Source: Flavobacterium sp.
GTDB taxonomy: Bacteria; Bacteroidota; Bacteroidia; Flavobacteriales; Flavobacteriaceae
DNA: 64,000 nt
Assembly: GCA_024644655.1 (NCBI GenBank)
Contig: JAHEHJ010000004.1
Span: forward strand, 1 to 64,000
Direction of reading: 5' to 3'
The notes beneath the pieces were generated by a model that worked only from the letters and a program-made list of their open reading frames with translations, made no database searches and was not told the origin of the DNA. Both the position numbers and the translations under genes were made by a program. This document shows, in pieces, positions 41,772-59,647 of the stretch; the stretch's first letter is position 1, and every line of letters starts with the position of its first letter.

Positions 41772-42560
41772 ATGAACAAATCTAGTATATATCTTTTTGT
41801 TTTATTTTGTTTGCTATTAACTTCATGTGTTTCTACAAACGACATGATTTATTTGCAAAATAAAAACGAAACTACCTCTGAGTCCATTTTGCCTTCAAAC
41901 AATAAGCCATATAGACTTCAAACTAATGATATTTTGAATGTTACTATTAAAGCTATAGATTCAAAGTTGGTTGAGATATTTAATGTGGCTAATACTCAAA
42001 ACAACACTAATATTAGTGAGCCTTCCAATTATTTTAATGGGTATGTAGTAGATGATCATGGTTCAATTCGATTGCCTTTATTAGGTGAAATAAATGTGCT
42101 AGGATATACAGTAGAAGAGGTTCGGGTTAAAATAGAAACTCAACTTAATGAGCAATATTTTAAAAAAGAGGCCGGTATATTTGTAATTGTAAAGCTTTCA
42201 GGATTTAGATATACCATTAATGGAGAGGTTTTAAATACAGGAACTAAAATTTTATATCAAGATAAAGTAAATATCATGGAGGCCATTGCGAATAGTGGTG
42301 ATATTACAGTGACAGGAAATCGAAAAGATGTAAAAGTAATACGAAGATATGCTCAAGGAACTGAAACTTTTAGTATTGATTTGACTAATAGTAATGCGGT
42401 AAATTCGCCTTGTTTTTATTTGCAGCCTAATGATTATATTTATGTTAAGCCCCTTAAACAAAAATCTTGGGGAACTGGAAAGACAGGTGTTGAATCTTTA
42501 ACTACCATTATTTCAATATTGTCATTGGCTACTACCACCTATTTATTACTTAAAAATTAA
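41772..42560 (+). CDS. wza: Outer-membrane polysaccharide export lipoprotein (Wza-type)
   Basis: A 262-residue OPX-family protein that forms the outer-membrane exit for capsule or exopolysaccharide. Lipoprotein signal peptide with lipobox Cys19 (LLTSC); Poly_export domain (about 45-150) with YRLQTNDILNVTIKA and GYVVDDHGSIRLPLLGEI; then a SLBB domain (about 155-230) with FRYTINGEVLNTG. A hydrophobic C-terminal segment (SLTTIISILSLATTTYLLL) replaces the amphipathic helix of E. coli Wza, as in many Bacteroidota proteins. wzc follows after 11 bases, the usual partner. Confidence 0.92.
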   Translation: MNKSSIYLFVLFCLLLTSCVSTNDMIYLQNKNETTSESILPSNNKPYRLQTNDILNVTIKAIDSKLVEIFNVANTQNNTNISEPSNYFNGYVVDDHGSIRLPLLGEINVLGYTVEEVRVKIETQLNEQYFKKEAGIFVIVKLSGFRYTINGEVLNTGTKILYQDKVNIMEAIANSGDITVTGNRKDVKVIRRYAQGTETFSIDLTNSNAVNSPCFYLQPNDYIYVKPLKQKSWGTGKTGVESLTTIISILSLATTTYLLLKN

Positions 42561-42571
42561 TATTCTAATCC

Positions 42572-45046
42572 ATGCTTGATATAAAAGATTTTTCTTTTTT
42601 TGATACCAAAAACAATAGCTTTGATTTCAAAGGTTTTTTGATAAAAACTACAAGTTATTGGAAGTGGTTTTTAGTTGGATTAATTATTACTTTTTCAATA
42701 GCACATCAGGTTAATGTTAGAAAGCAAAAAATATATGGAATTGAAACAACTATTGCAGTAAAAGAAGAGAATAATCCATTTTTTACTTCTAATACTAGTT
42801 TGGTGTTTAATTGGGGTGGTACTTCTGATAAAGTGCAAATGATTTCGACTACTTTAAAGTCGAGGTCGCACAATGAAATTGTGGTTGATCAATTGCAGTT
42901 TTATATTGATTATTACAAACAAACGGAGTATTTCTTGCAGGATGTTTATGGTTCAGTTCCTTTTAAGATACTATTAGATAAGAATCAGCCTCAATTGTAT
43001 GATCATTTTATTAAAGTTAAAATGCTATCTTACAATACCTATCAGCTTACTATTCCATTTCAAAATATAAATCAAAGTGTTGTAACATATTCCAATAACC
43101 GTATTTCACCAGTAGTTGTTCCAAATAAAGATTTTGTAAAAAGATATAAAGTTGGGCAAAATGTAAATTTGCCTTTTTTACATTGGAAACTTGTTTTAGA
43201 AGACTTGTCAAAATTTAAGTTGAATGAAGAAATATTAATTCGATTTAATTCTTTTGATGAAACAGTAAGTAAATGCCAAGGAATAAAAGTGGTCATTGAC
43301 GAAAAAGCTGGGTCAATTCTTAAACTTGGAATGGAAGGAACCAATAAAGCTAGGATGGTTGATTTTCTGAATGCAACGGTTGAATGTTTGATAAAAAGAC
43401 AGTTAGATAACAAAAATAAGTTTGCTGAAAATACAATTGATTTTATTGATAAAACTTTATCTTCTATGGAAAAGCAATTAGAAGATTCGGGTAATGATTT
43501 AAAGGATTTTAGTAGAAATAATAGCATACTTGATTTAGAAGATAAAGGGGCTAATTTTAAAGAACAATTACTTGGTTTAGATAGCAAGAAGGATGAAGTA
43601 GAACGTAAAATATCTTATTTAAGTTCGTTAAAAGCCTATTTGAAAAATAGTGTGGATTTTTCTAAATTACCCGCTCCTACGGTAGCTGGTATTGATGACC
43701 CCAATATTGTTTTAAATGTTTCGAAATTAATTTCTTTGTCTATTGAACGGTCTGAAATGTTATATTCAACAAAGGGTCAGGTCTTTTATGAAAGAAAAGA
43801 CAATGAAATCGGTGCAGTGAAAAAAGTACTATTAGAAAACAGCGGTTCTTTGAAAGAGGTATTAACTAATGATTTAAATGCCGTTAATACTAAATTACAA
43901 TCGATTGAAAATGAAATTAAAAAGATGCCTGAAACCAATCAGGCTTATATTAATATCTCTAGGAAATATAATTTAAGTAGCAGTATATATGATACTTTTT
44001 TACAAAAGCGCAGTGAAGCTTCAATTGTTAAAGCAGCGAATTTATCAGATATACAGTTTATAGATCCCGCAAAAGATGTGGGTGGTGGATTATTAGGTCC
44101 TAAGACAACAGTTAACTATGTATTGGCATTCTTTATTGGATTGTTAGTACCTCTTATTTTAGTTTTTTTATTATTCTTTATTAATAATACAATACAAAAT
44201 ATTGTTGATATTTCTAGTTTGACACAACTTCCACTTATTGGAATTGTTGGCTATAAATATTCAGATTCTAATTTAGCTGTATTTGAAAGGCCTAAATCAG
44301 CTTTGTCTGAATCCTTTAGAGCGATTCGTTCTTCGTTGCAGTTCATCTATAAGAAGCAAAGTTTAGAGGGTACTAAGACTCTTATGTTGACGTCTTCAAT
44401 AAGTGGAGAGGGTAAAACATTTTGTTCCATTAATATAGCCACTGTTTTTGCATTAAGTGAAAAGAAAACCATCATACTAGGTTTGGATTTAAGAAAACCA
44501 AAAATATTTGATGATTTTAATATTAAAAATGATATTGGTGCTGTTAACTATTTAATTGGTCAAAAAACATTAGATGAAGTCATTCAACATACACATGTAC
44601 CTTATTTAGATGTTATTACTTCTGGGCCCATACCTCCTAATCCATCTGAGTTGATTTTAGGGGATACAATGAAAGAAATGATTTTGGAGTTGAAAAACAG
44701 ATATGATTATATTATATTAGATACACCTCCAGTAGGATTAGTATCTGATGCCATGGAATTAGCTCAGTTTTGTGATGTTACATTATATGTGGTTCGACAA
44801 AATTTCACTAAAAAAGAAATGCTTACATTATTAAATAATCGAGCTAAAAGAGGTGAATTAAATAATATCAGTATCATCTTTAATGGGTATGAGAATAAAG
44901 CTAAATACGGTGTAGGCTATGGTTATGGTTATGGCTATGGTTATAGTTATGGTTATGGTAATGGAAGTGGGTATCATGAAGAGGATGAGCCTAGGGGACT
45001 GTTTGCAAAATTGTATTTTAAATTGTTCAAGAGAAAACAAGAATAA
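42572..45046 (+). CDS. wzc: Polysaccharide co-polymerase and BY-type tyrosine autokinase (Wzc)
   Basis: An 824-residue inner-membrane protein controlling polysaccharide assembly and export. The N-terminal Wzz domain begins with a membrane helix (about 33-50), then a long periplasmic region with coiled-coil segments (about 270-480), and a second helix (about 512-535). The cytosolic kinase (about 560-770) has Walker A SGEGKT (Lys615), Walker A' LGLDLRKPK and Walker B DYIILDTPP. The C-tail (779-801) has nine Tyr in 23 residues in Tyr-Gly steps, the autophosphorylation cluster typical of the family but unusually regular. The stop overlaps the next start (TAATG). Confidence 0.95.
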   Translation: MLDIKDFSFFDTKNNSFDFKGFLIKTTSYWKWFLVGLIITFSIAHQVNVRKQKIYGIETTIAVKEENNPFFTSNTSLVFNWGGTSDKVQMISTTLKSRSHNEIVVDQLQFYIDYYKQTEYFLQDVYGSVPFKILLDKNQPQLYDHFIKVKMLSYNTYQLTIPFQNINQSVVTYSNNRISPVVVPNKDFVKRYKVGQNVNLPFLHWKLVLEDLSKFKLNEEILIRFNSFDETVSKCQGIKVVIDEKAGSILKLGMEGTNKARMVDFLNATVECLIKRQLDNKNKFAENTIDFIDKTLSSMEKQLEDSGNDLKDFSRNNSILDLEDKGANFKEQLLGLDSKKDEVERKISYLSSLKAYLKNSVDFSKLPAPTVAGIDDPNIVLNVSKLISLSIERSEMLYSTKGQVFYERKDNEIGAVKKVLLENSGSLKEVLTNDLNAVNTKLQSIENEIKKMPETNQAYINISRKYNLSSSIYDTFLQKRSEASIVKAANLSDIQFIDPAKDVGGGLLGPKTTVNYVLAFFIGLLVPLILVFLLFFINNTIQNIVDISSLTQLPLIGIVGYKYSDSNLAVFERPKSALSESFRAIRSSLQFIYKKQSLEGTKTLMLTSSISGEGKTFCSINIATVFALSEKKTIILGLDLRKPKIFDDFNIKNDIGAVNYLIGQKTLDEVIQHTHVPYLDVITSGPIPPNPSELILGDTMKEMILELKNRYDYIILDTPPVGLVSDAMELAQFCDVTLYVVRQNFTKKEMLTLLNNRAKRGELNNISIIFNGYENKAKYGVGYGYGYGYGYSYGYGNGSGYHEEDEPRGLFAKLYFKLFKRKQE
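44915..44956 (+). repeat. Hexanucleotide repeat coding the Wzc tyrosine tail
   Basis: Seven consecutive six-base units of the form GGYTAT (one unit AGTTAT) coding Gly-Tyr or Ser-Tyr. Slippage by whole units would change the number of phosphorylatable Tyr without shifting frame. Confidence 0.8.
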
Positions 45047-49828: not shown

Positions 49829-50875
49829 ATGAAAAAGTTACTTATTACCGGTGGAGCAGGCTTTATAGGTTCCCATGTAGTTAGACGTTTTGTGACGAAA
49901 TATCCTAATTATAAAATATTTAATTTAGACGCATTAACTTATGCTGGAAATTTGCAAAATATATCAGATATTGAAAATGCTCCAAATTATACTTTTATAA
50001 AAGGCGATATTACAGTTGAAAAATTTATTGATCAGCTATTTTTTAAACATCAATTTGATGGAGTATTGCATTTAGCTGCAGAATCTCATGTAGATCGTTC
50101 AATATCGGACCCTTTGGCTTTTGTGAAAACAAATGTTATTGGAACTATGAATTTGTTGAATGCGTCTAATGCTATTTGGAAAGGGAATAATGAAGGAAAA
50201 CGTTTTTATCACATTAGTACTGATGAAGTTTATGGGAGTTTAGGCTCTTCTGGATTGTTTACTGAATCAACTCCTTATGACCCAAATTCGCCTTATTCTG
50301 CATCAAAAGCAAGTTCGGATCATTTTGTTAGAGCCTATGGAGAAACATATGGATTACCTTATGTAATTACAAATTGTTCTAATAATTATGGTCCTAATCA
50401 TTTTCCAGAGAAATTAATTCCCTTATTTATAAATAATATTATTAATGAAAAACCATTACCTGTATATGGAGATGGTAAATACACTAGAGATTGGCTTTAT
50501 GTAGAAGATCATGCTGTTGCTATTGATTTAGTTTTTCATGAAGGTAGAAATAATGAGACCTATAATATTGGAGGTTTTAATGAATGGAAGAATATAGATT
50601 TAGTAAAATTGCTTTGCCATCAGATGGATAATAAGTTGGGGAGAAATGTAGGGGATTCTGAAAAATTAATTACTTATGTAAAGGATAGACCAGGTCATGA
50701 TTTGAGATATGCAATTGACGCAACAAAAATAAATAAAGAGTTGGGATGGAAGCCTTCAGTTACATTTGAACAAGGATTGGAAAAAACAATAGATTGGTAC
50801 TTATCAAATGAGGATTGGTTAAAAAATGTAACATCAGGGGATTATTTGAAATATTATGAAAGTCAATATTTGTAA
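49829..50875 (+). CDS. rfbB: dTDP-glucose 4,6-dehydratase
   Basis: Converts dTDP-glucose to dTDP-4-keto-6-deoxyglucose. The 348-residue protein has [12 protein letters not shown], the LHLAAESHVDRS segment specific to RmlB, STDEVYG with the catalytic Asp-Glu dyad, YSASK, and NCSNNYGPNHFPEK. The partner genes rmlA, rmlC and rmlD are not in this window, so the downstream sugar is not determined. It is the last gene before a 201-base gap with a new promoter. Confidence 0.93.
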   Translation: MKKLLITGGAGFIGSHVVRRFVTKYPNYKIFNLDALTYAGNLQNISDIENAPNYTFIKGDITVEKFIDQLFFKHQFDGVLHLAAESHVDRSISDPLAFVKTNVIGTMNLLNASNAIWKGNNEGKRFYHISTDEVYGSLGSSGLFTESTPYDPNSPYSASKASSDHFVRAYGETYGLPYVITNCSNNYGPNHFPEKLIPLFINNIINEKPLPVYGDGKYTRDWLYVEDHAVAIDLVFHEGRNNETYNIGGFNEWKNIDLVKLLCHQMDNKLGRNVGDSEKLITYVKDRPGHDLRYAIDATKINKELGWKPSVTFEQGLEKTIDWYLSNEDWLKNVTSGDYLKYYESQYL

Positions 50876-51023
50876 TTCAAAAAATTCTTGAGTTACAGTC
50901 GATGTGAAATGATTTAAATAATATGTTTAAGGATTATTTTGTAATAAAAACCGTTTATTTTTAGCTAGCAAATTTCTTTTTATATTTTTATATTCTTATT
51001 TTCTTATATTATTATAACTTCTT

Positions 51024-51064
51024 TTTGGTTATCTTGATTAAACGAGTACTTTTGTTACTCGTTT
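51024..51064 (+). promoter_or_regulatory. Promoter with an embedded palindromic operator or attenuator
   Basis: TTTG at 51024-51027, 19 bases, then TACTTTTG at 51047-51054 (exact TAnnTTTG). Overlapping it, AAACGAGTA (51040-51048) is the exact complement of TACTCGTTT (51056-51064), so the -7 element sits in the middle of a 9-base dyad. A T-rich stretch (51061-51074) follows, so an RNA terminator form is also possible for transcripts arriving from upstream. The regulator ATG is at 51077. Confidence 0.75.
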
Positions 51065-51076
51065 TCTTTTTTTATT

Positions 51077-51577
51077 ATGCTTGAATCACTTATAACCTCT
51101 AAAACTCGTCTTCGTATTTTGATAAAGTTCTTTATCAATGTTACAAATAATGGTCATTTAAGAGGGTTGGCTGATGAAATGCATGAATCAACTAATGCTA
51201 TTCGTAAAGAATTGAATAATCTTACTGAAGCTGGTTATTTAGAAAAAGAAACAATTCAAAATAGGGTGAATTATAAAGCGAATACCAAACATCCTTTATT
51301 TAATACTTTACAAAAAATCATACATCAACATATAGGTTTAGATTCAATTGTAACTACAATTTTGACTCGTATGGGATCAATTAAAAAAATAGTTGTAATT
51401 GGAGATTATGCTAATGGAAATGATACTGGTGAAATTGAAGTAGTTTTAGTTGGAGATAATATTAATACAGAATATATTAAAAATATAACTTTAAAGATTG
51501 AAAATAAAATTAAAAGAAAAGTTATTTTTATTGTTTTATCAAGTTTTGATGGTGCGGGACTAATTATATTTGAATAA
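51077..51577 (+). CDS. Winged-helix regulator with degenerate nucleotidyltransferase-like domain
   Basis: A 166-residue cytosolic protein. Residues ~1-75 form an ArsR-like winged helix (SKTRLRILIKFF, then LADEMHESTNAIRKELNNL as recognition region). Residues ~95-166 resemble a MNT-type nucleotidyltransferase fold (IKKIVVIGDYANG, then EIEVVLVGD). The catalytic Gly-Ser and Asp-x-Asp residues are replaced by Gly-Asp and Glu-x-Glu, so it is unlikely to be an active transferase. Proteins of this kind are frequent in Bacteroidota polysaccharide loci. The palindrome in its own promoter makes autoregulation and control of the downstream export/glycosyltransferase genes likely; that is inference. Confidence 0.78.
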   Translation: MLESLITSKTRLRILIKFFINVTNNGHLRGLADEMHESTNAIRKELNNLTEAGYLEKETIQNRVNYKANTKHPLFNTLQKIIHQHIGLDSIVTTILTRMGSIKKIVVIGDYANGNDTGEIEVVLVGDNINTEYIKNITLKIENKIKRKVIFIVLSSFDGAGLIIFE

Positions 51578-51607
51578 TTTTTATATACAATTTAATTTAT
51601 TTATTAA

Positions 51608-52459
51608 ATGGATTCTAAATCACAAAAATGGACTGAAGAAATTCAAGCAGAAAATTCTTTAATGTCCATCAATTTATTAGAAGTATGGAATTATAGGGAC
51701 TTGCTGTTAATGCTTGTGAAAAGGGATTTTATAACTTTTTATAAGCAAACAATTTTGGGCCCTATTTGGTTTTTTGTACAGCCAATTTTTACAACTATTA
51801 TATATGTAATTTTATTTGGACAAGTTGCTAAATTATCTACTGATGGACTTCCACAGATGCCATTTTATTTAGCTGGTATTACTATTTGGAATTACTTTTC
51901 AGATTCATTATCAAAGACATCAACAGTCTTTAAGGATAATGCTAGTGTTTTTGGTAAAGTATATTTTCCAAGGTTAATTATGCCTTTATCAATTGTTGTA
52001 TCTAATTTAATGAAATTTGCAATTCAATTCGGATTATTTATATCAGTTGTACTTTATTTTACTTTTGTTCAAAAAAATATTCATCCTAATATTTGGATAC
52101 TTGCAACTCCATATTTAATCCTTTTGATGGCTGGATTTGCAATGGGTTTAGGTATGATTTTTTCTTCATTGACAACAAAATATAAAGATTTAGTTTTTTT
52201 GTTGTCTTTTGGTATCCAATTGTTTATGTATGCAACACCGGTAATATATTCTATTTCTTCTATCCCTTTGAAATATAAATGGGTAGTTAATGTTAATCCA
52301 TTAACTGGAATATTTGAATGTTTTAGATATGCTTATTTAGGATCTGGTGAATTCAACCCTTTTAGTTTATTGACAAGTACATTTACTATAATAGTATTAC
52401 TTTTTTTAGGTGTAATTGTTTTTAATAAAGTTGAAAAAAGCTTTATGGACACAGTATAA
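51608..52459 (+). CDS. wzm: ABC polysaccharide exporter, permease subunit (Wzm-type)
   Basis: A 283-residue inner-membrane protein of the ABC-2 permease family with an N-terminal amphipathic stretch (LWNYRDLLLMLVKRDF type motif VWNYRDLLLML), GPIWFFVQPIFTTIIYVILFG and six hydrophobic helices. With the adjacent ATPase it exports complete, lipid-linked glycans across the inner membrane. The family N-terminal motif supports this rather than a generic ABC-2 permease. It begins 30 bases after the regulator gene. Confidence 0.92.
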   Translation: MDSKSQKWTEEIQAENSLMSINLLEVWNYRDLLLMLVKRDFITFYKQTILGPIWFFVQPIFTTIIYVILFGQVAKLSTDGLPQMPFYLAGITIWNYFSDSLSKTSTVFKDNASVFGKVYFPRLIMPLSIVVSNLMKFAIQFGLFISVVLYFTFVQKNIHPNIWILATPYLILLMAGFAMGLGMIFSSLTTKYKDLVFLLSFGIQLFMYATPVIYSISSIPLKYKWVVNVNPLTGIFECFRYAYLGSGEFNPFSLLTSTFTIIVLLFLGVIVFNKVEKSFMDTV

Positions 52460-52486
52460 AATATTTAATATTTTTAATGAATTATA

Positions 52487-53764
52487 ATGAGAAATTTAGT
52501 TATAAAGGCTGAAAATATATCCAAACAATATCGTTTAGGGGAAGTAGGTACGGGTACATTAAGCCATGATTTAAATAGATTTTGGTATAAAATTAGAGGA
52601 AAGGATGATCCATATATTAAAATAGGTGAGGCCAATGATCGAAGTAAAAAAGGTCAAAGTGATTATGTGTGGTCTCTTAGAGATGTTGATTTTGAAATAA
52701 ATCAAGGCGATGCAGTTGGTATTATAGGTAGAAATGGTGCCGGTAAAAGTACGTTGTTAAAACTTTTAAGTAAAGTGACAAAGCCAACAACAGGAAGTTT
52801 TAAAATTAATGGAAGAATAGCTTCACTTTTAGAAGTAGGGACAGGATTTAATCCAGAAATGACTGGTCGTGAAAATGTTTTTCTCAATGGTGCCATATTA
52901 GGTATGAGTCGAAGTGAAATCACTAGGAAATTAGATGAAATAATAGACTTTAGTGGAGTTGAAAGATATATTGATACCCCTGTAAAAAGGTATAGTAGTG
53001 GGATGTATGTTAGATTAGCTTTTGCTGTTGCTGCTCATTTAGAAAGTGAAATACTCATAGTTGATGAAGTATTAGCTGTAGGTGATGCTGAATTTCAAAA
53101 GAAGTGCCTAGGTAAAATGGGAGATGTTAGTAAAGGTGAGGGTAGAACAGTATTATTTGTAAGCCATAATCTAGCTTCTGTTCAAAACTTATGTAATAAA
53201 GGTTTTTTATTGGAAAAAGGAAATTTGATTGCAAATGATAGAATAGAGAATGTTTTACAACAATATCAATTGTCTAATCAAGATACAAATAAAAATATAT
53301 TAGATTTTGATAGAAAAGGCACTGGTTTAATTCGGCTTTCAGAAATAAATTTGATTTCAAAAGAAAATGATTTTGAAAAAGGCACATTTTTCCTAGGTGA
53401 AAAATTCTATATAAAGTTGAAGTTAAATAAAATTCAAAAGGGAAGTGTTAATAATGTTAGAATTATTATTGGTATCTATAATTTAATGGATGAAGGATAT
53501 TTAAGATTTGATAGTAAAACATTAAATACTCAATATACAATTGAAGAAGACGAGACATTTATTATCTGTGATATTGAAGAGCATCTGAATATAAAGCCGG
53601 ATAAATATTATATAAATGTAGCAATATTAAGTCATGATGTTTTAATAGATCATATTACCAATGTTAAAGGATTTTATATTGATAACTCAGACTATTATAA
53701 GACAGGTAGAAATATTGATGATTCTCATTTAGCAAAAGTGTATTATAAACATAAATGGTTATAA
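52487..53764 (+). CDS. wzt: ABC polysaccharide exporter, ATPase with C-terminal glycan-binding-type domain (Wzt-type)
   Basis: A 425-residue protein. The N-terminal nucleotide-binding domain (about 1-250) has Walker A GRNGAGKST (Lys87), the signature YSSGMYVRLAFA and Walker B ILIVDEVLAVGD. Residues ~275-425 are an extra beta-rich domain of the Wzt C-terminal type. In E. coli O8/O9a this domain recognises the modified non-reducing end of the chain and couples termination with export. Its presence predicts a chain end with a specific cap, and the next gene encodes a candidate capping enzyme 9 bases downstream. Confidence 0.93.
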   Translation: MRNLVIKAENISKQYRLGEVGTGTLSHDLNRFWYKIRGKDDPYIKIGEANDRSKKGQSDYVWSLRDVDFEINQGDAVGIIGRNGAGKSTLLKLLSKVTKPTTGSFKINGRIASLLEVGTGFNPEMTGRENVFLNGAILGMSRSEITRKLDEIIDFSGVERYIDTPVKRYSSGMYVRLAFAVAAHLESEILIVDEVLAVGDAEFQKKCLGKMGDVSKGEGRTVLFVSHNLASVQNLCNKGFLLEKGNLIANDRIENVLQQYQLSNQDTNKNILDFDRKGTGLIRLSEINLISKENDFEKGTFFLGEKFYIKLKLNKIQKGSVNNVRIIIGIYNLMDEGYLRFDSKTLNTQYTIEEDETFIICDIEEHLNIKPDKYYINVAILSHDVLIDHITNVKGFYIDNSDYYKTGRNIDDSHLAKVYYKHKWL

Positions 53765-53773
53765 ATAAATACT

Positions 53774-55237
53774 ATGAAAAAAATTGAAAATGTTATTTTT
53801 TCACACAAATCAATGGTTGATGATTTTGGACGAGTTTTCTTTTATGAAGATCGTGTTTTTCGATTAATAAATAATGAAAAAAAAGAATATTGTATTGAAT
53901 TATTAAATTCTGATTTATTCAAAATTCTAATAGAAGAAAAATACATACCGTTTACTAAAATTTCCGAAGAATTTAGTACAGAAGAAAGATTAATTTTAGA
54001 GCATAAAAAAGTATTGGAAACAGTACAGCATGAATGGTCTTTTTTAATGTATAAGGAGGCAGCTCTAAAAGTTTTTGAATTAAATGAATTATGTAATAAA
54101 TATGGCTATGAATTAAAAGATGCACATACATTAAATGTGTTGTTTAATAACGTTACTCCATTATATATCGACTTTGGTAGTATTTCGAAAAAAAACAATA
54201 AAAAAAGAGATTGGTTTGCATATATTGAATATTTAAATTCATTTTATCTCCCATTATTGTTTTGGAGCCAAAATAAACATTTCATAGTTAGAAAGCTTCT
54301 TGAAAGTAATTTTTATAAATTGTATACAATTCCAGATCAGTCAATTGAAGAGACGGGTTTGCTGAAAATTGTAGGTGTTAATTATAAAAAATACAGTTAT
54401 AAATTTAGAAATTTTAAATTATTTGAAGCTAATGAAAAGGTCTCTGTTTTAACTTTTATTTCTAAATCAATAAATTATTTATATAAAATTATTTTTAAAA
54501 GAAAGAGTTGTGTTTTAGGATATAATACAAATACGTTGAAAGATTATTTTTCTCAAAATAGACTAAAAGATAATTTATTAAAATTAAACTCGCCTAATTT
54601 AGCAAGTCAATGGGAAGGATATCACAATAATTTTTATAATTCAATTGATGAAGTTAATTACTCATTTAGGTTTAAAAGATTATTAGAGATAATAAATCAA
54701 TATAGTGATATTAAATCAATCATTGATTTAGCAGGGAATGAAGGATATTTTTCTATTTTATTGTCTAATAATATAAAATTAGAAAGAATTATATTAGCTG
54801 ATTATGATGAAAACGCAATCGATAAAGCATTTTATAATATTAAAAAATTAGAGATTCAAAATATCACTCCAATATTGTTGAACTTTATGTTCACGTTAGA
54901 TCAACTCGGAACAGCAAAAAGATTGAAGTCTGATTTAGTTGTTTCTTTAGCAGTTACGCATCATTTAATTCTTACGGGTAATTATTCATTAGCTACAATC
55001 TTTGAAAGACTATCCCTTTTCTCAAATAAATATGTTATGGTTGAATTCATGCCTTTAGGGCTTTGGAGTCTTGACCATAAAATTGAACATGAATTACCCA
55101 AATGGTATACATTAGAATGGTTTAGAGATGAATTTGAGAATTATTTTGAATTAATTTTAGAGGAAAAGTTAGAAGAAAATAGAATAGTATTTTTTGGTAA
55201 ATTAAAACAAAATGTTAATAATGAAAAGTCTAATTAA
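53774..55237 (+). CDS. Protein with N-terminal kinase-like motifs and C-terminal SAM methyltransferase domain
   Basis: A 487-residue cytosolic protein. The C-terminal part (about 270-480) is a class I methyltransferase: SIIDLAGNEGYFS (Asp318 and Gly-rich SAM loop), ILADYDENAIDKA, and LVVSLAVTHHL. The N-terminal part resembles NoeA-like proteins and contains KDAHTLNVLF (Asp116, Asn121) followed by YIDFGS (Asp133). The spacing matches the catalytic D-x-x-x-x-N and DFG motifs of kinase-fold phosphotransferases. Whether the kinase part is active is not known. Location right after a Wzt with a glycan-binding-type domain suggests it modifies the chain end, like the methyltransferase-kinase WbdD but with the domain order reversed. 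It overlaps the next gene by 17-26 bases. Confidence 0.72.
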   Translation: MKKIENVIFSHKSMVDDFGRVFFYEDRVFRLINNEKKEYCIELLNSDLFKILIEEKYIPFTKISEEFSTEERLILEHKKVLETVQHEWSFLMYKEAALKVFELNELCNKYGYELKDAHTLNVLFNNVTPLYIDFGSISKKNNKKRDWFAYIEYLNSFYLPLLFWSQNKHFIVRKLLESNFYKLYTIPDQSIEETGLLKIVGVNYKKYSYKFRNFKLFEANEKVSVLTFISKSINYLYKIIFKRKSCVLGYNTNTLKDYFSQNRLKDNLLKLNSPNLASQWEGYHNNFYNSIDEVNYSFRFKRLLEIINQYSDIKSIIDLAGNEGYFSILLSNNIKLERIILADYDENAIDKAFYNIKKLEIQNITPILLNFMFTLDQLGTAKRLKSDLVVSLAVTHHLILTGNYSLATIFERLSLFSNKYVMVEFMPLGLWSLDHKIEHELPKWYTLEWFRDEFENYFELILEEKLEENRIVFFGKLKQNVNNEKSN

Positions 55238-55859
55238 AAATAAAATTAGAAATTTTATTTTAAGACTATTTCCTGAAATTAGGAATTTTCATAGTATAGT
55301 AAATCACAATACTATTCTTGGAAATAATACTAAGATATATCCAAAGGCTTATTTAAGCAATTCAGAAATTGGTAATTATACTTATGTTTCTGAAAATTCT
55401 ATTATAAAAAACACAACAATTGGAAAGTTTTGTTCTATAGGACCAAATTTGTTATGTGGATGGGGTTTACATCCAACAAATGGAATATCAACACATCCTA
55501 TGTTTTATTCTTCTAAAAAGCAAAATGGGATGACATTATCTAATACTGATAAAATTGAGGAATGGAAACAAATTGTAATAGGTAATGATGTATTTATTGG
55601 GATGAATGTTACTATAATTGATGGTGTGAAAATTGGTGATGGAGCAATAATTGGTGCAGGTGCAATAGTATCAAAAGATATACCGCCATATTCAATTGCA
55701 GTTGGGAGTCCAATTCAGATAATAGGATCAAGATTTGATGATGATATAATAAATCAGCTTTTAACCATTAAATGGTGGGATTTTCAAGAAGATAAATTAC
55801 AATTAATTGAAAAATATTTTTTTGATATTGAAAGGGCAATTGACGTTTTTAAAAATTAA
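55221..55859 (+). CDS. Hexapeptide-repeat acetyltransferase (CatB/XAT-type)
   Basis: A ~212-residue left-handed beta-helix acyltransferase. Hexapeptide repeats run from about 30 to 175 (GNNTKIYPKAYLSNSEIGNY, then IVIGNDVFIGMNVTIIDGVKIGDG), with the XAT-type loop containing GWGLHPT and STHPMFY between coils, and the closing DIPPYSIAVGSP. Family members acetylate sugars, antibiotics or other small acceptors; in this locus a sugar O- or N-acetyl transfer is the natural reading. ATG at 55212 or 55221 are both possible, and both overlap the preceding stop at 55237. Confidence 0.87.
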   Translation: MKSLIKNKIRNFILRLFPEIRNFHSIVNHNTILGNNTKIYPKAYLSNSEIGNYTYVSENSIIKNTTIGKFCSIGPNLLCGWGLHPTNGISTHPMFYSSKKQNGMTLSNTDKIEEWKQIVIGNDVFIGMNVTIIDGVKIGDGAIIGAGAIVSKDIPPYSIAVGSPIQIIGSRFDDDIINQLLTIKWWDFQEDKLQLIEKYFFDIERAIDVFKN

Positions 55860-55861
55860 TC

Positions 55862-56782
55862 ATGGAAAAACATTCAAAAATATTTATAGCGGGTCATAAT
55901 GGTATGGTAGGTAGTTCTATTCACCGAGAGCTACTTCGAATTGGATTTACGAATCTTGTTTTTAAATCTTCTAAAGAACTTGATCTCAGAAATAGTTTTG
56001 GTGTTCAATCTTTTTTTGAAACCGAACGTCCAGATTATGTGATTCTTGCAGCTGCAAAAGTTGGAGGTATAGTTGCAAACAATACTTATAAAGCTGATTT
56101 TTTGTATGATAATTTAATGATACAAAATAATGTTATTCATAATTCTTATTTAACTGGGGTTAAGAAATTATTGTTTTTAGGGTCAAGTTGTATATATCCA
56201 AAATATGCTCCACAACCCTTAAAGGAGGAATATTTATTGACAGGAATATTGGAACCTACAAATGAACCCTATGCAATTGCGAAAATAGCAGGAATTAAAT
56301 TGTGTGATGCCTATCGTAGTCAATATGGTTGTAATTTTATTTCTGCTATGCCTACAAATCTTTATGGTTTGAATGATAATTATGATTTAAACAATTCTCA
56401 TGTTTTACCTGCGATGTTACGTAAATTTCATGAAGCAAAAATTGAAAATAAAAGTGAAGTTTTATTGTGGGGAGATGGAAGTGCTCTACGTGAGTTTTTG
56501 CATGTTGATGATTTGGCAAAAGCTTGTTTGTCATTAATTGAAGGTTATGATGGAACAGGGCCAATTAATATAGGTACTGGATCCGATATTAGTATTCGTG
56601 ATCTAGCAGAAATGATTAAATCAATTGTTGGTTTTGATGGAGAAATTTGTTGGGATACATCTAAACCGAATGGAACACCAAGAAAATTATTAGATGTATC
56701 TAAAATACATGAATTGGGTTGGAAGCATCAAATTGATTTACAAGAAGGAATAAAAAGTGTTTATAAAGAAAAGTTTATATAA
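55862..56782 (+). CDS. fcl: GDP-L-fucose synthase
   Basis: Epimerises and reduces GDP-4-keto-6-deoxymannose to GDP-L-fucose with NADPH. The 306-residue protein has [20 protein letters not shown], the GSSCIYPK catalytic Ser/Tyr region, [10 protein letters not shown] with the Y-x-x-x-K pair, and [10 protein letters not shown]. It precedes gmd, whose start overlaps its stop (TAATG); most operons have gmd first. It shows that L-fucose (or a derivative) is a component of the glycan. Confidence 0.95.
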
Positions 56783-58657: not shown

Positions 58658-59647
58658 ATGAAAACAGTTGTTTTTACCCTTTGTTCCAATAATTACCTTG
58701 CACATGCAAAAACATTAGGGGATTCAATTATTGAAAAGAATCCAAATGTTATATTTATTATAGGATTGGTAGATAAAAAAAATCCTGAAATTGATTATAG
58801 CTTATTTAGTGCATTCGATATAATTGAATATGATGAAATAAAATGTGTTGATTTTCCTAACATGCTTTCATCTTATACGATTGTAGAATTTAATACTGCC
58901 GTAAAACCATTTTATATTGAAATGTTATGGGAAAGGTATGGGAAAGAATGTTTTATTTATTATATAGACCCTGATATCGTTTTTTACTCGCCCATAGAAG
59001 AATTGAATACATACTTGAATACAAATGATATTATTATCACTCCACATTTAATTAAAGCACAAATACCTATAAATTCAGTAGAAACTAATTTGTTAAAAAC
59101 TGGCATTTTTAATTTAGGTTTTATTGGATTAAAATTTTCTGAAAATACAGTTGAATTCATTAAATGGTGGCAAGAGCGATTGAAAGTATATTGTTATATG
59201 GATAAAAAGGAAACTTTTTATGTAGATCAAATTTGGGTAAATTTTGTTCCTGCACTTTTTGATAAGGTTTTTATTTTAAGAGAACCAATTTATAATATGG
59301 CATGGTGGAATTTATCTGAAAGAAAATTATTAGAACTTAATGGCGAATATTATGTAAATAATAATTTGCATAAATTAATGTTTTTTCATTTTAGTGGTTA
59401 CAAGCCAGGAAGTAATAAAATGATAGGAAGAATTGATAATGATGACTATAGTTTTGAAAAAAGGCCTGATTTAGAAAAGATATTTCTCGAATATGAGCAT
59501 TCATTACTAAAAAATAATCTAAAATCATTATCTAAAACAAAGCCTTTGATCAAATTTAAAGATAAAAAGGTTTCAACAAGACAAAGAATAGGCATGTCAT
59601 TGAGATATAGGTTTGATTTAGTTTTAAAAAAGGTTTTTAATATTTGA
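58658..59647 (+). CDS. Probable GT-A glycosyltransferase (GT8-like)
   Basis: A 329-residue protein. The N-terminus (VVFTLCSNNYLAHAKTLGDSI) resembles GT8/GlcNAc-transferase-like nucleotide-sugar folds and a D-x-D motif is clear at Asp104-Pro-Asp106 (YYIDPDIVF). Downstream FYVDQIWVN and HFSGYKPG match conserved positions of the GT8-like group. The C-terminal ~50 residues are Lys-rich and may touch the membrane. It is less typical than its neighbours; donor and linkage unknown. Confidence 0.75.
   Translation: MKTVVFTLCSNNYLAHAKTLGDSIIEKNPNVIFIIGLVDKKNPEIDYSLFSAFDIIEYDEIKCVDFPNMLSSYTIVEFNTAVKPFYIEMLWERYGKECFIYYIDPDIVFYSPIEELNTYLNTNDIIITPHLIKAQIPINSVETNLLKTGIFNLGFIGLKFSENTVEFIKWWQERLKVYCYMDKKETFYVDQIWVNFVPALFDKVFILREPIYNMAWWNLSERKLLELNGEYYVNNNLHKLMFFHFSGYKPGSNKMIGRIDNDDYSFEKRPDLEKIFLEYEHSLLKNNLKSLSKTKPLIKFKDKKVSTRQRIGMSLRYRFDLVLKKVFNI

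Follow-up and report, generated by a model that had tools for sequence, protein, structure and literature searches.

The 64,000-nucleotide stretch of Flavobacterium sp. DNA analysed here, referred to as the window, contains a large glycan locus that includes an ORF at 53774-55237 on the + strand, which begins with ATG and encodes a product of 487 aa. This ORF and its neighbours, with the basis on which each feature was assigned, are as follows.

51608..52459, + strand: Wzm, an ABC-2 permease (Pfam ABC2_membrane, E 1.2e-21)
52487..53764, + strand: Wzt, an ABC ATPase with a C-terminal carbohydrate-binding-type domain, 425 aa (Pfam ABC_tran and Wzt_C; nearest solved chain 8dku)
53276..53761, + strand: C-terminal domain of Wzt, residues 264-425 (Pfam Wzt_C; Aquifex aeolicus Wzt chains in the PDB)
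53774..55237, + strand: kinase-methyltransferase fusion of the NoeA/Lani_1194 family, Wzt-linked clade, 487 aa (homology, model, tree, neighbourhoods)
53774..54540, + strand: kinase-like domain, about residues 1-255 (approximate boundary), with R30, D116, N121 and D133 (AlphaFold2 model, Foldseek, VIA-align, invariant residues)
54600..55213, + strand: class I SAM methyltransferase domain, about residues 276-480, with D318-L-A-G-N-E-G, D343-Y-D345, H396-H397 and E424-F-M-P-L-G-L (profile match to 3jwi/3jwg; weak Pfam)
55212..55859, + strand: hexapeptide-repeat acyltransferase (Pfam Hexapep, E 4.7e-20)

The end of Wzt is separated from the start of the kinase-methyltransferase by 9 bases, and the acyltransferase ORF overlaps the end of the kinase-methyltransferase ORF by 26 bases. 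An earlier note on this DNA had claimed an upstream ABC ATPase with a C-terminal domain at this distance, and the claim holds, as Wzt continues for about 160 residues beyond its ATPase. The genome to which the window belongs (3.07 Mb, 180 contigs, 93% complete, 8% contamination) carries a single copy of the kinase-methyltransferase. Upstream in the window, 41772-42560 and 42572-45046 presumably encode a Wza-like exporter and a Wzc-like co-polymerase. Two further proteins are also encoded here: one of 166 residues with a weak helix-turn-helix match ahead of Wzm (51077-51577), and one of 329 residues in the glycan locus without a Pfam match at E<=1 (58658-59647). An Rfam scan of 50500-56500 gave no match at the gathering score.

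The earlier note had also described kinase-like motifs in the N-terminal half, namely D116-x4-N121 and a DFG at D133. In the translated ORF, D116 and N121 are found at these positions, and D133 lies in the sequence I-D133-F-G-S. However, the F is not a feature of the family: it follows D133 in only 2 of the 10 members of the window clade, and T takes its place in 39 of 53 members of the other clade. R30, D116, N121 and D133 are identical in 63/63 aligned family members; these residue counts and the tree described below use 63 rows, with the partial member L094 left out of the 64 homologues. Because these presumed catalytic residues are identical throughout, a chance motif match is rejected.

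Searches by sequence (Pfam, NCBIfam and PDB) matched no kinase family in the window protein. Structural comparison was based on an AlphaFold2 model built from 5 sequences, whose mean pLDDT is 57; averaged by block, it reaches about 80 over most of residues 21-110 and 63-72 over residues 111-140, which include the catalytic residues. Every one of the 24 PDB matches that Foldseek gave with this model at E<=0.001 is a protein kinase, with CDK1, IRAK4, Aurora A and PKA as examples; the model is of moderate quality, and the TM-scores are low (about 0.2 of the whole query). VIA-align reaches a Z of 10.7, with an rmsd of 3.7 over 185 residues. The N-terminal half is consequently predicted to adopt a protein-kinase fold, in agreement with what its motifs had suggested.

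The SAM loop that had been noticed in the C-terminal half is present as I-D318-L-A-G-N-E-G. No PDB chain was returned at E<=10 by phmmer with the window protein. With the profile of the clade (10 members), 6 PDB sequences came up at E<=10; the name WbdD does not occur among them, and they include the methyltransferases 3jwi (E 4.2e-5) and 3jwg (E 4.9e-5). Matches to Pfam and NCBIfam methyltransferase families are weak, the best with Pfam being E 0.0026 for the window protein and 7.2e-6 within the clade. Position 318 is D in 8/10 and E in 2/10 members of the window clade. Across the family, H396 is kept in 63/63 members, H397 in 62/63, and D343 and D345 in 58/63 each, while the EFMPLGL motif and H118 are present in 10/10 window-clade members. 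The AlphaFold2 model is weak in this half, where the pLDDT averaged by block is about 30-60 between residues 281 and 400, and the domain ends near residue 480 of 487.

Kinase-methyltransferases typified by Sinorhizobium NoeA and Legionella Lani_1194 were described in 2022 as a functionally uncharacterised family of about two thousand homologues, 94% of which carry a methyltransferase (PMC9758233). The window protein shares with them the N-terminal kinase, the C-terminal methyltransferase and the catalytic D-N-D. When hhalign compares the profile of the window clade with one built from ten canonical members, the match extends over 423 columns at a probability of 100 and an E of 5.8e-64, and phmmer scores the window protein against a canonical member at 85 bits. 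By sequence homology, the window protein is therefore a member of the NoeA/Lani_1194 family, and the kinase-methyltransferase architecture is not new, since that family is already published (PMC9758233).

The search for homologues covered overlapping sets of 150, 395, 398 and 395 genomes, of which 7, 14, 27 and 23 matched; two contigs and two plasmids (2 of 60 plasmid records) were added, and the fragment G678 C26 was left out. A scan of genome contigs yielded only 4 relatives. With regard to a viral or mobile origin, viral contigs searched with the window protein gave no relative. The sister-clade profile, for its part, matched canonical NoeA-type relatives on 4 contigs classed as viral (L095-L098).

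The 64 proteins were sorted by whether they score higher to the window protein or to the canonical member, which gave 10 window-type and 54 canonical proteins. In the 63-row tree, which was built by a quick method with no bootstrap, a branch with an SH-aLRT of 100 divides the 10 window-type proteins from the rest. The window clade thus stands apart from canonical NoeA/Lani_1194 proteins on the tree, is marked by the EFMPLGL motif and H118, and has an extended Wzt as its partner instead of NoeB.

This exchange of partners was followed in a survey of neighbouring genes, where Wzt was counted at phmmer >=100 bits within 9.5 kb and NoeB by an iterated profile. Wzt is found near 8/10 window-type proteins and 0/54 canonical ones, and Wzm near 7/10 and 0/54, respectively. 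Conversely, NoeB accompanies 0/10 window-type and 46/54 canonical proteins, and a Wzx flippase 0/10 and 18/54. Less than 4 kb of flank on one side is available for 12 canonical proteins and 1 window-type protein; without these cases, the counts are 7/9 against 0/42 for Wzt and 0/9 against 38/42 for NoeB (window-type against canonical). The Fisher p for the Wzt link is 1e-8, a value that overstates the evidence because the members are related and the clade probably represents few independent events. In 7/10 window-type cases, Wzt lies directly upstream (<100 bases), and these 7 Wzt proteins are extended, with 423-431 residues; a Wzt so placed is found in 0/54 members of the sister clade. The co-occurrence with extended Wzt that the earlier note had put forward as a check is therefore a property of this clade and not of the whole family. 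The order Wzm-Wzt-kinase/methyltransferase-acyltransferase is shared by 5 loci from two bacterial families (the window, L013, L014, L091 and L154), and a hexapeptide acyltransferase lies directly downstream of the kinase-methyltransferase in 5/10 clade members. The relative Flavobacterium anhuiense (L034) shows this gene order.

In the published survey, NoeB occurs in 38% of NoeA/Lani_1194 neighbourhoods, so that it is a frequent but not a defining neighbour (PMC9758233). Within Flavobacterium, the canonical NoeA-type enzymes (L015-L018, L037 and L075-L089) are adjoined by NoeB in 20/20 cases and by a Wzx-type flippase in 17/20. The text available from PMC9758233 reports a Wzt neighbour for Lcin_0519 and not for Lani_1194: of the neighbourhoods of Lcin_0519 kinase-methyltransferases, 27% contain Wzt and a glycosyltransferase homologue, and 17% also a Wzm homologue. 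Lcin_0519 is described in that paper as a family separate from Lani_1194. In the sources and excerpts on WbdD, Wzt, NoeA, Flavobacterium O-antigen and methyl phosphate that were consulted (PMC6120980 included), no paper on a Wzt-linked clade was found.

The C-terminal domain of the window Wzt matches Wzt_C over residues 275-398 with an E of 5.8e-6 and 26.8 bits, just below the Pfam cut-off of 30.4 bits. Among the relatives, L013, L091, L035 and L154 reach 36.9-50.6 bits and L156 25.5 bits, L014 being outside the scan. The nearest solved relative of the window Wzt is that of A. aeolicus (8dku), and the best four PDB sequence matches of the C-terminal domain are A. aeolicus Wzt chains, at E 0.009-0.03. 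The model of this domain is mostly beta and of low confidence (pLDDT 47.5); a fold search with it returned 0 matches at E<=0.001 and placed the A. aeolicus Wzt domain at rank 9, weakly. A profile of the domain has matches in 44/299 Flavobacterium genomes. Scores are 265-281 bits in the 4 genomes that carry the kinase-methyltransferase and at most 66.2 bits in the other 295, a difference that is partly built in because those four include rows of the profile.

The profile matches also made it possible to consider which gene usually follows an extended Wzt in this genus. The test covered 24 of 26 other loci (L103-L128), L110 and L126 being dropped for want of a clear full-length Wzt ORF, and it leaves out the 14 weakest of the 44 profile matches. 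The first gene after the extended Wzt encodes a methyltransferase in 16/24 loci. Nine of the 16 are recognised by Pfam at E<=0.05, as four Methyltransf_31, two FkbM and three Methyltransf_24 (two of the three below the Pfam cut-off), and the remaining 7 are blastp homologues of the Methyltransf_24 group. The other 8/24 loci have a pyruvyl transferase, four glycosyltransferases, an acyltransferase, an MptE-like protein and an epimerase in this position. One gene further on, a methyltransferase model matches in at most 1/23 cases (E 0.022) and Glycos_transf_2 in 13/23, although most of these sequences end at the locus edge, which can hide matches. In view of 16/24 against at most 1/23, the window enzyme occupies the usual methyltransferase slot of the genus. 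No kinase family was matched in the slot genes of the 24 loci. The slot methyltransferases are of three kinds, one of which is a family of about 240 residues that is mostly unrecognised by Pfam. The slot behind an extended Wzt could serve as a simple predictor of chain-end chemistry across Flavobacterium.

The ending of surface sugar chains and the signal that this gives to the exporter are known in detail for only a few systems. WbdD of E. coli O9a adds a phosphate to the terminal mannose and a methyl group to that phosphate (PMC3482155). The window protein resembles WbdD of E. coli O9a and Klebsiella O3 in joining a kinase and a methyltransferase in one protein within an ABC-exported glycan pathway, where the cap made by WbdD is read by the C-terminal domain of Wzt (PMC3482155, PMC11231755). 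However, WbdD is arranged as methyltransferase-kinase-coiled coil, and the window protein as kinase-methyltransferase, with no coiled coil found. The earlier note had proposed that the two domains stand in reverse order relative to WbdD, and the description in PMC3482155 bears this out. A crude heptad scan for a coiled-coil ruler in the window protein found none, giving 0.75 against a shuffle mean of 0.79 and 1.27 for the Wzc-like control. Plain membership in the WbdD family is rejected on account of the reversed domain arrangement and of the scan, which revealed no coiled coil. WbdD is not among the best 50 Foldseek and best 50 VIA-align matches listed, which is no proof of its absence. Since no coiled-coil ruler was found and Wzc-like and Wza-like proteins are encoded upstream, chain length may be set otherwise in this locus.

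A second known terminator, ORF6 of Klebsiella O7, is a methyltransferase-kinase that makes a methyl-phosphate cap like that of WbdD with a different kinase (PMC11231755). ORF6 is fused to family-2 glycosyltransferases, a feature shared by the relative L036. It differs from the window protein in its opposite domain order, its coiled-coil ruler and its kinase, for which DALI gave AmiN as the closest match (PMC11231755). According to the same source, the coiled coil is a characteristic marker of the chain-terminated strategy in the Klebsiella systems discussed there, serotype O1 excepted. A third point of reference is A. aeolicus, in which the C-terminal domain of Wzt binds a 3-O-methyl cap (PMC9445017). 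This cap is a methyl group without phosphate, and the domain that binds it matches that of the window weakly (E about 0.01).

Taken together, these comparisons point to the kinase-methyltransferase as a chain-end capping enzyme, whose (methyl-)phosphate cap would be read by the C-terminal domain of Wzt before export of the chain by Wzm/Wzt; a probability of roughly 60% is assigned to this reading. In such a mechanism, both domains would act in the cytoplasm on a surface polysaccharide still linked to its lipid: the kinase domain would phosphorylate the non-reducing end of the chain, and the methyltransferase domain would methylate that end, with the phosphate as the simplest target. Recognition of the cap by the C-terminal domain of the neighbouring Wzt would then admit the finished chain to the Wzm/Wzt exporter. 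The capping role is considered the most likely because of the analogy with WbdD, ORF6 and the Aquifex Wzt. The step from gene location to chemistry is one that we infer, as are the glycan substrate, the chain-end position, the methyl-phosphate product, the recognition by Wzt and the stop of elongation.

Two loci of the clade depart from the common arrangement. In L036, Wzt is short (246 aa), lies about 4 kb upstream and has no Wzt_C match; consequently, no Wzt-fused domain can read a cap there. In this locus, one ORF of at least 1010 residues (L036:9956-12987), which reaches the contig end, joins the kinase-methyltransferase to a family-2 glycosyltransferase and to another methyltransferase. 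L155 contains two clade members on opposite strands (L155:6661-8082 and L155:11738-13174), with no Wzt in the 19.5 kb around them (at least about 6 kb to each side); a Wzt is located on another contig of the genome. In addition, no Wzm was found in the neighbourhood of L035. The idea of the earlier note that the locus follows the logic of WbdD can thus be kept in part. The predicted kinase fold, the co-occurrence with Wzt and the reverse domain order are consistent with it, but the absence of a detected coiled coil, the short Wzt of L036 and the lack of a nearby Wzt in L155 argue against a simple WbdD equivalent.

The case of L155 would be easier to understand if the enzyme decorated the glycan with phosphate and methyl, in the chain or on a side residue, with no part in termination or export, and if its adjacency to Wzt came only from a shared glycan locus. 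The sister clade lends weight to such a role, as its members stand beside NoeB (46/54) and in part Wzx (18/54), with Wzt in 0/54, so that the family can work without ABC export; PMC9758233 itself proposes decoration of secreted factors for the NoeA/Lani_1194 family. Nevertheless, an extended Wzt directly adjoins 7/10 clade members, and the slot that it defines favours a methyltransferase in 16/24 loci against at most 1/23 one gene on. Decoration alone is therefore regarded as fairly unlikely.

It could also be argued that the methyltransferase alone makes the cap, the kinase-like domain being a non-catalytic scaffold. Methyl-only caps do exist, in A. aeolicus (PMC9445017) and Klebsiella O5 (PMC11231755), and the 16/24 slots are filled by stand-alone methyltransferases, none of the 24 slot genes having matched a kinase family. 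However, all 63 members share the same catalytic residues in the kinase, and the L155:6661 copy keeps its kinase residues while its methyltransferase motif is altered, which makes a purely methyl cap improbable for this clade. Action on a precursor (nucleotide sugar or lipid carrier) or on a protein, a choice that fold and residues do not reveal and that the protein kinases among the structural matches might favour, is more improbable still, given that the conserved partners are an exporter and, in 5/10, an acyltransferase and that the extended-Wzt link would be left unexplained.

If the capping reading is true, Bacteroidota would possess a solution with another domain arrangement, which would suggest that caps can be made without a fused ruler. 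A wider proposal, rated at somewhat less than an even chance, is that the clade adds a third family to the kinase-methyltransferase terminators represented so far by WbdD and Klebsiella O7 ORF6. This family would have reversed domain order and no built-in ruler, and would have arisen within the NoeA family by exchanging NoeB for a Wzt that reads caps; it would follow that NoeA-type proteins in general, NoeA included, add (methyl-)phosphate to glycan ends. Should both clades act on chain ends, NoeA, a host-range nodulation gene of unexplained chemistry, would gain a testable activity. In Nod factors, the non-reducing end is the site on which NodL acts. This acetyltransferase is encoded, together with NoeB, in the noeA operon of Sinorhizobium (PMC9758233). 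In L012, a weak match to the hexapeptide acyltransferase of the window (38 bits) lies upstream of NoeA.
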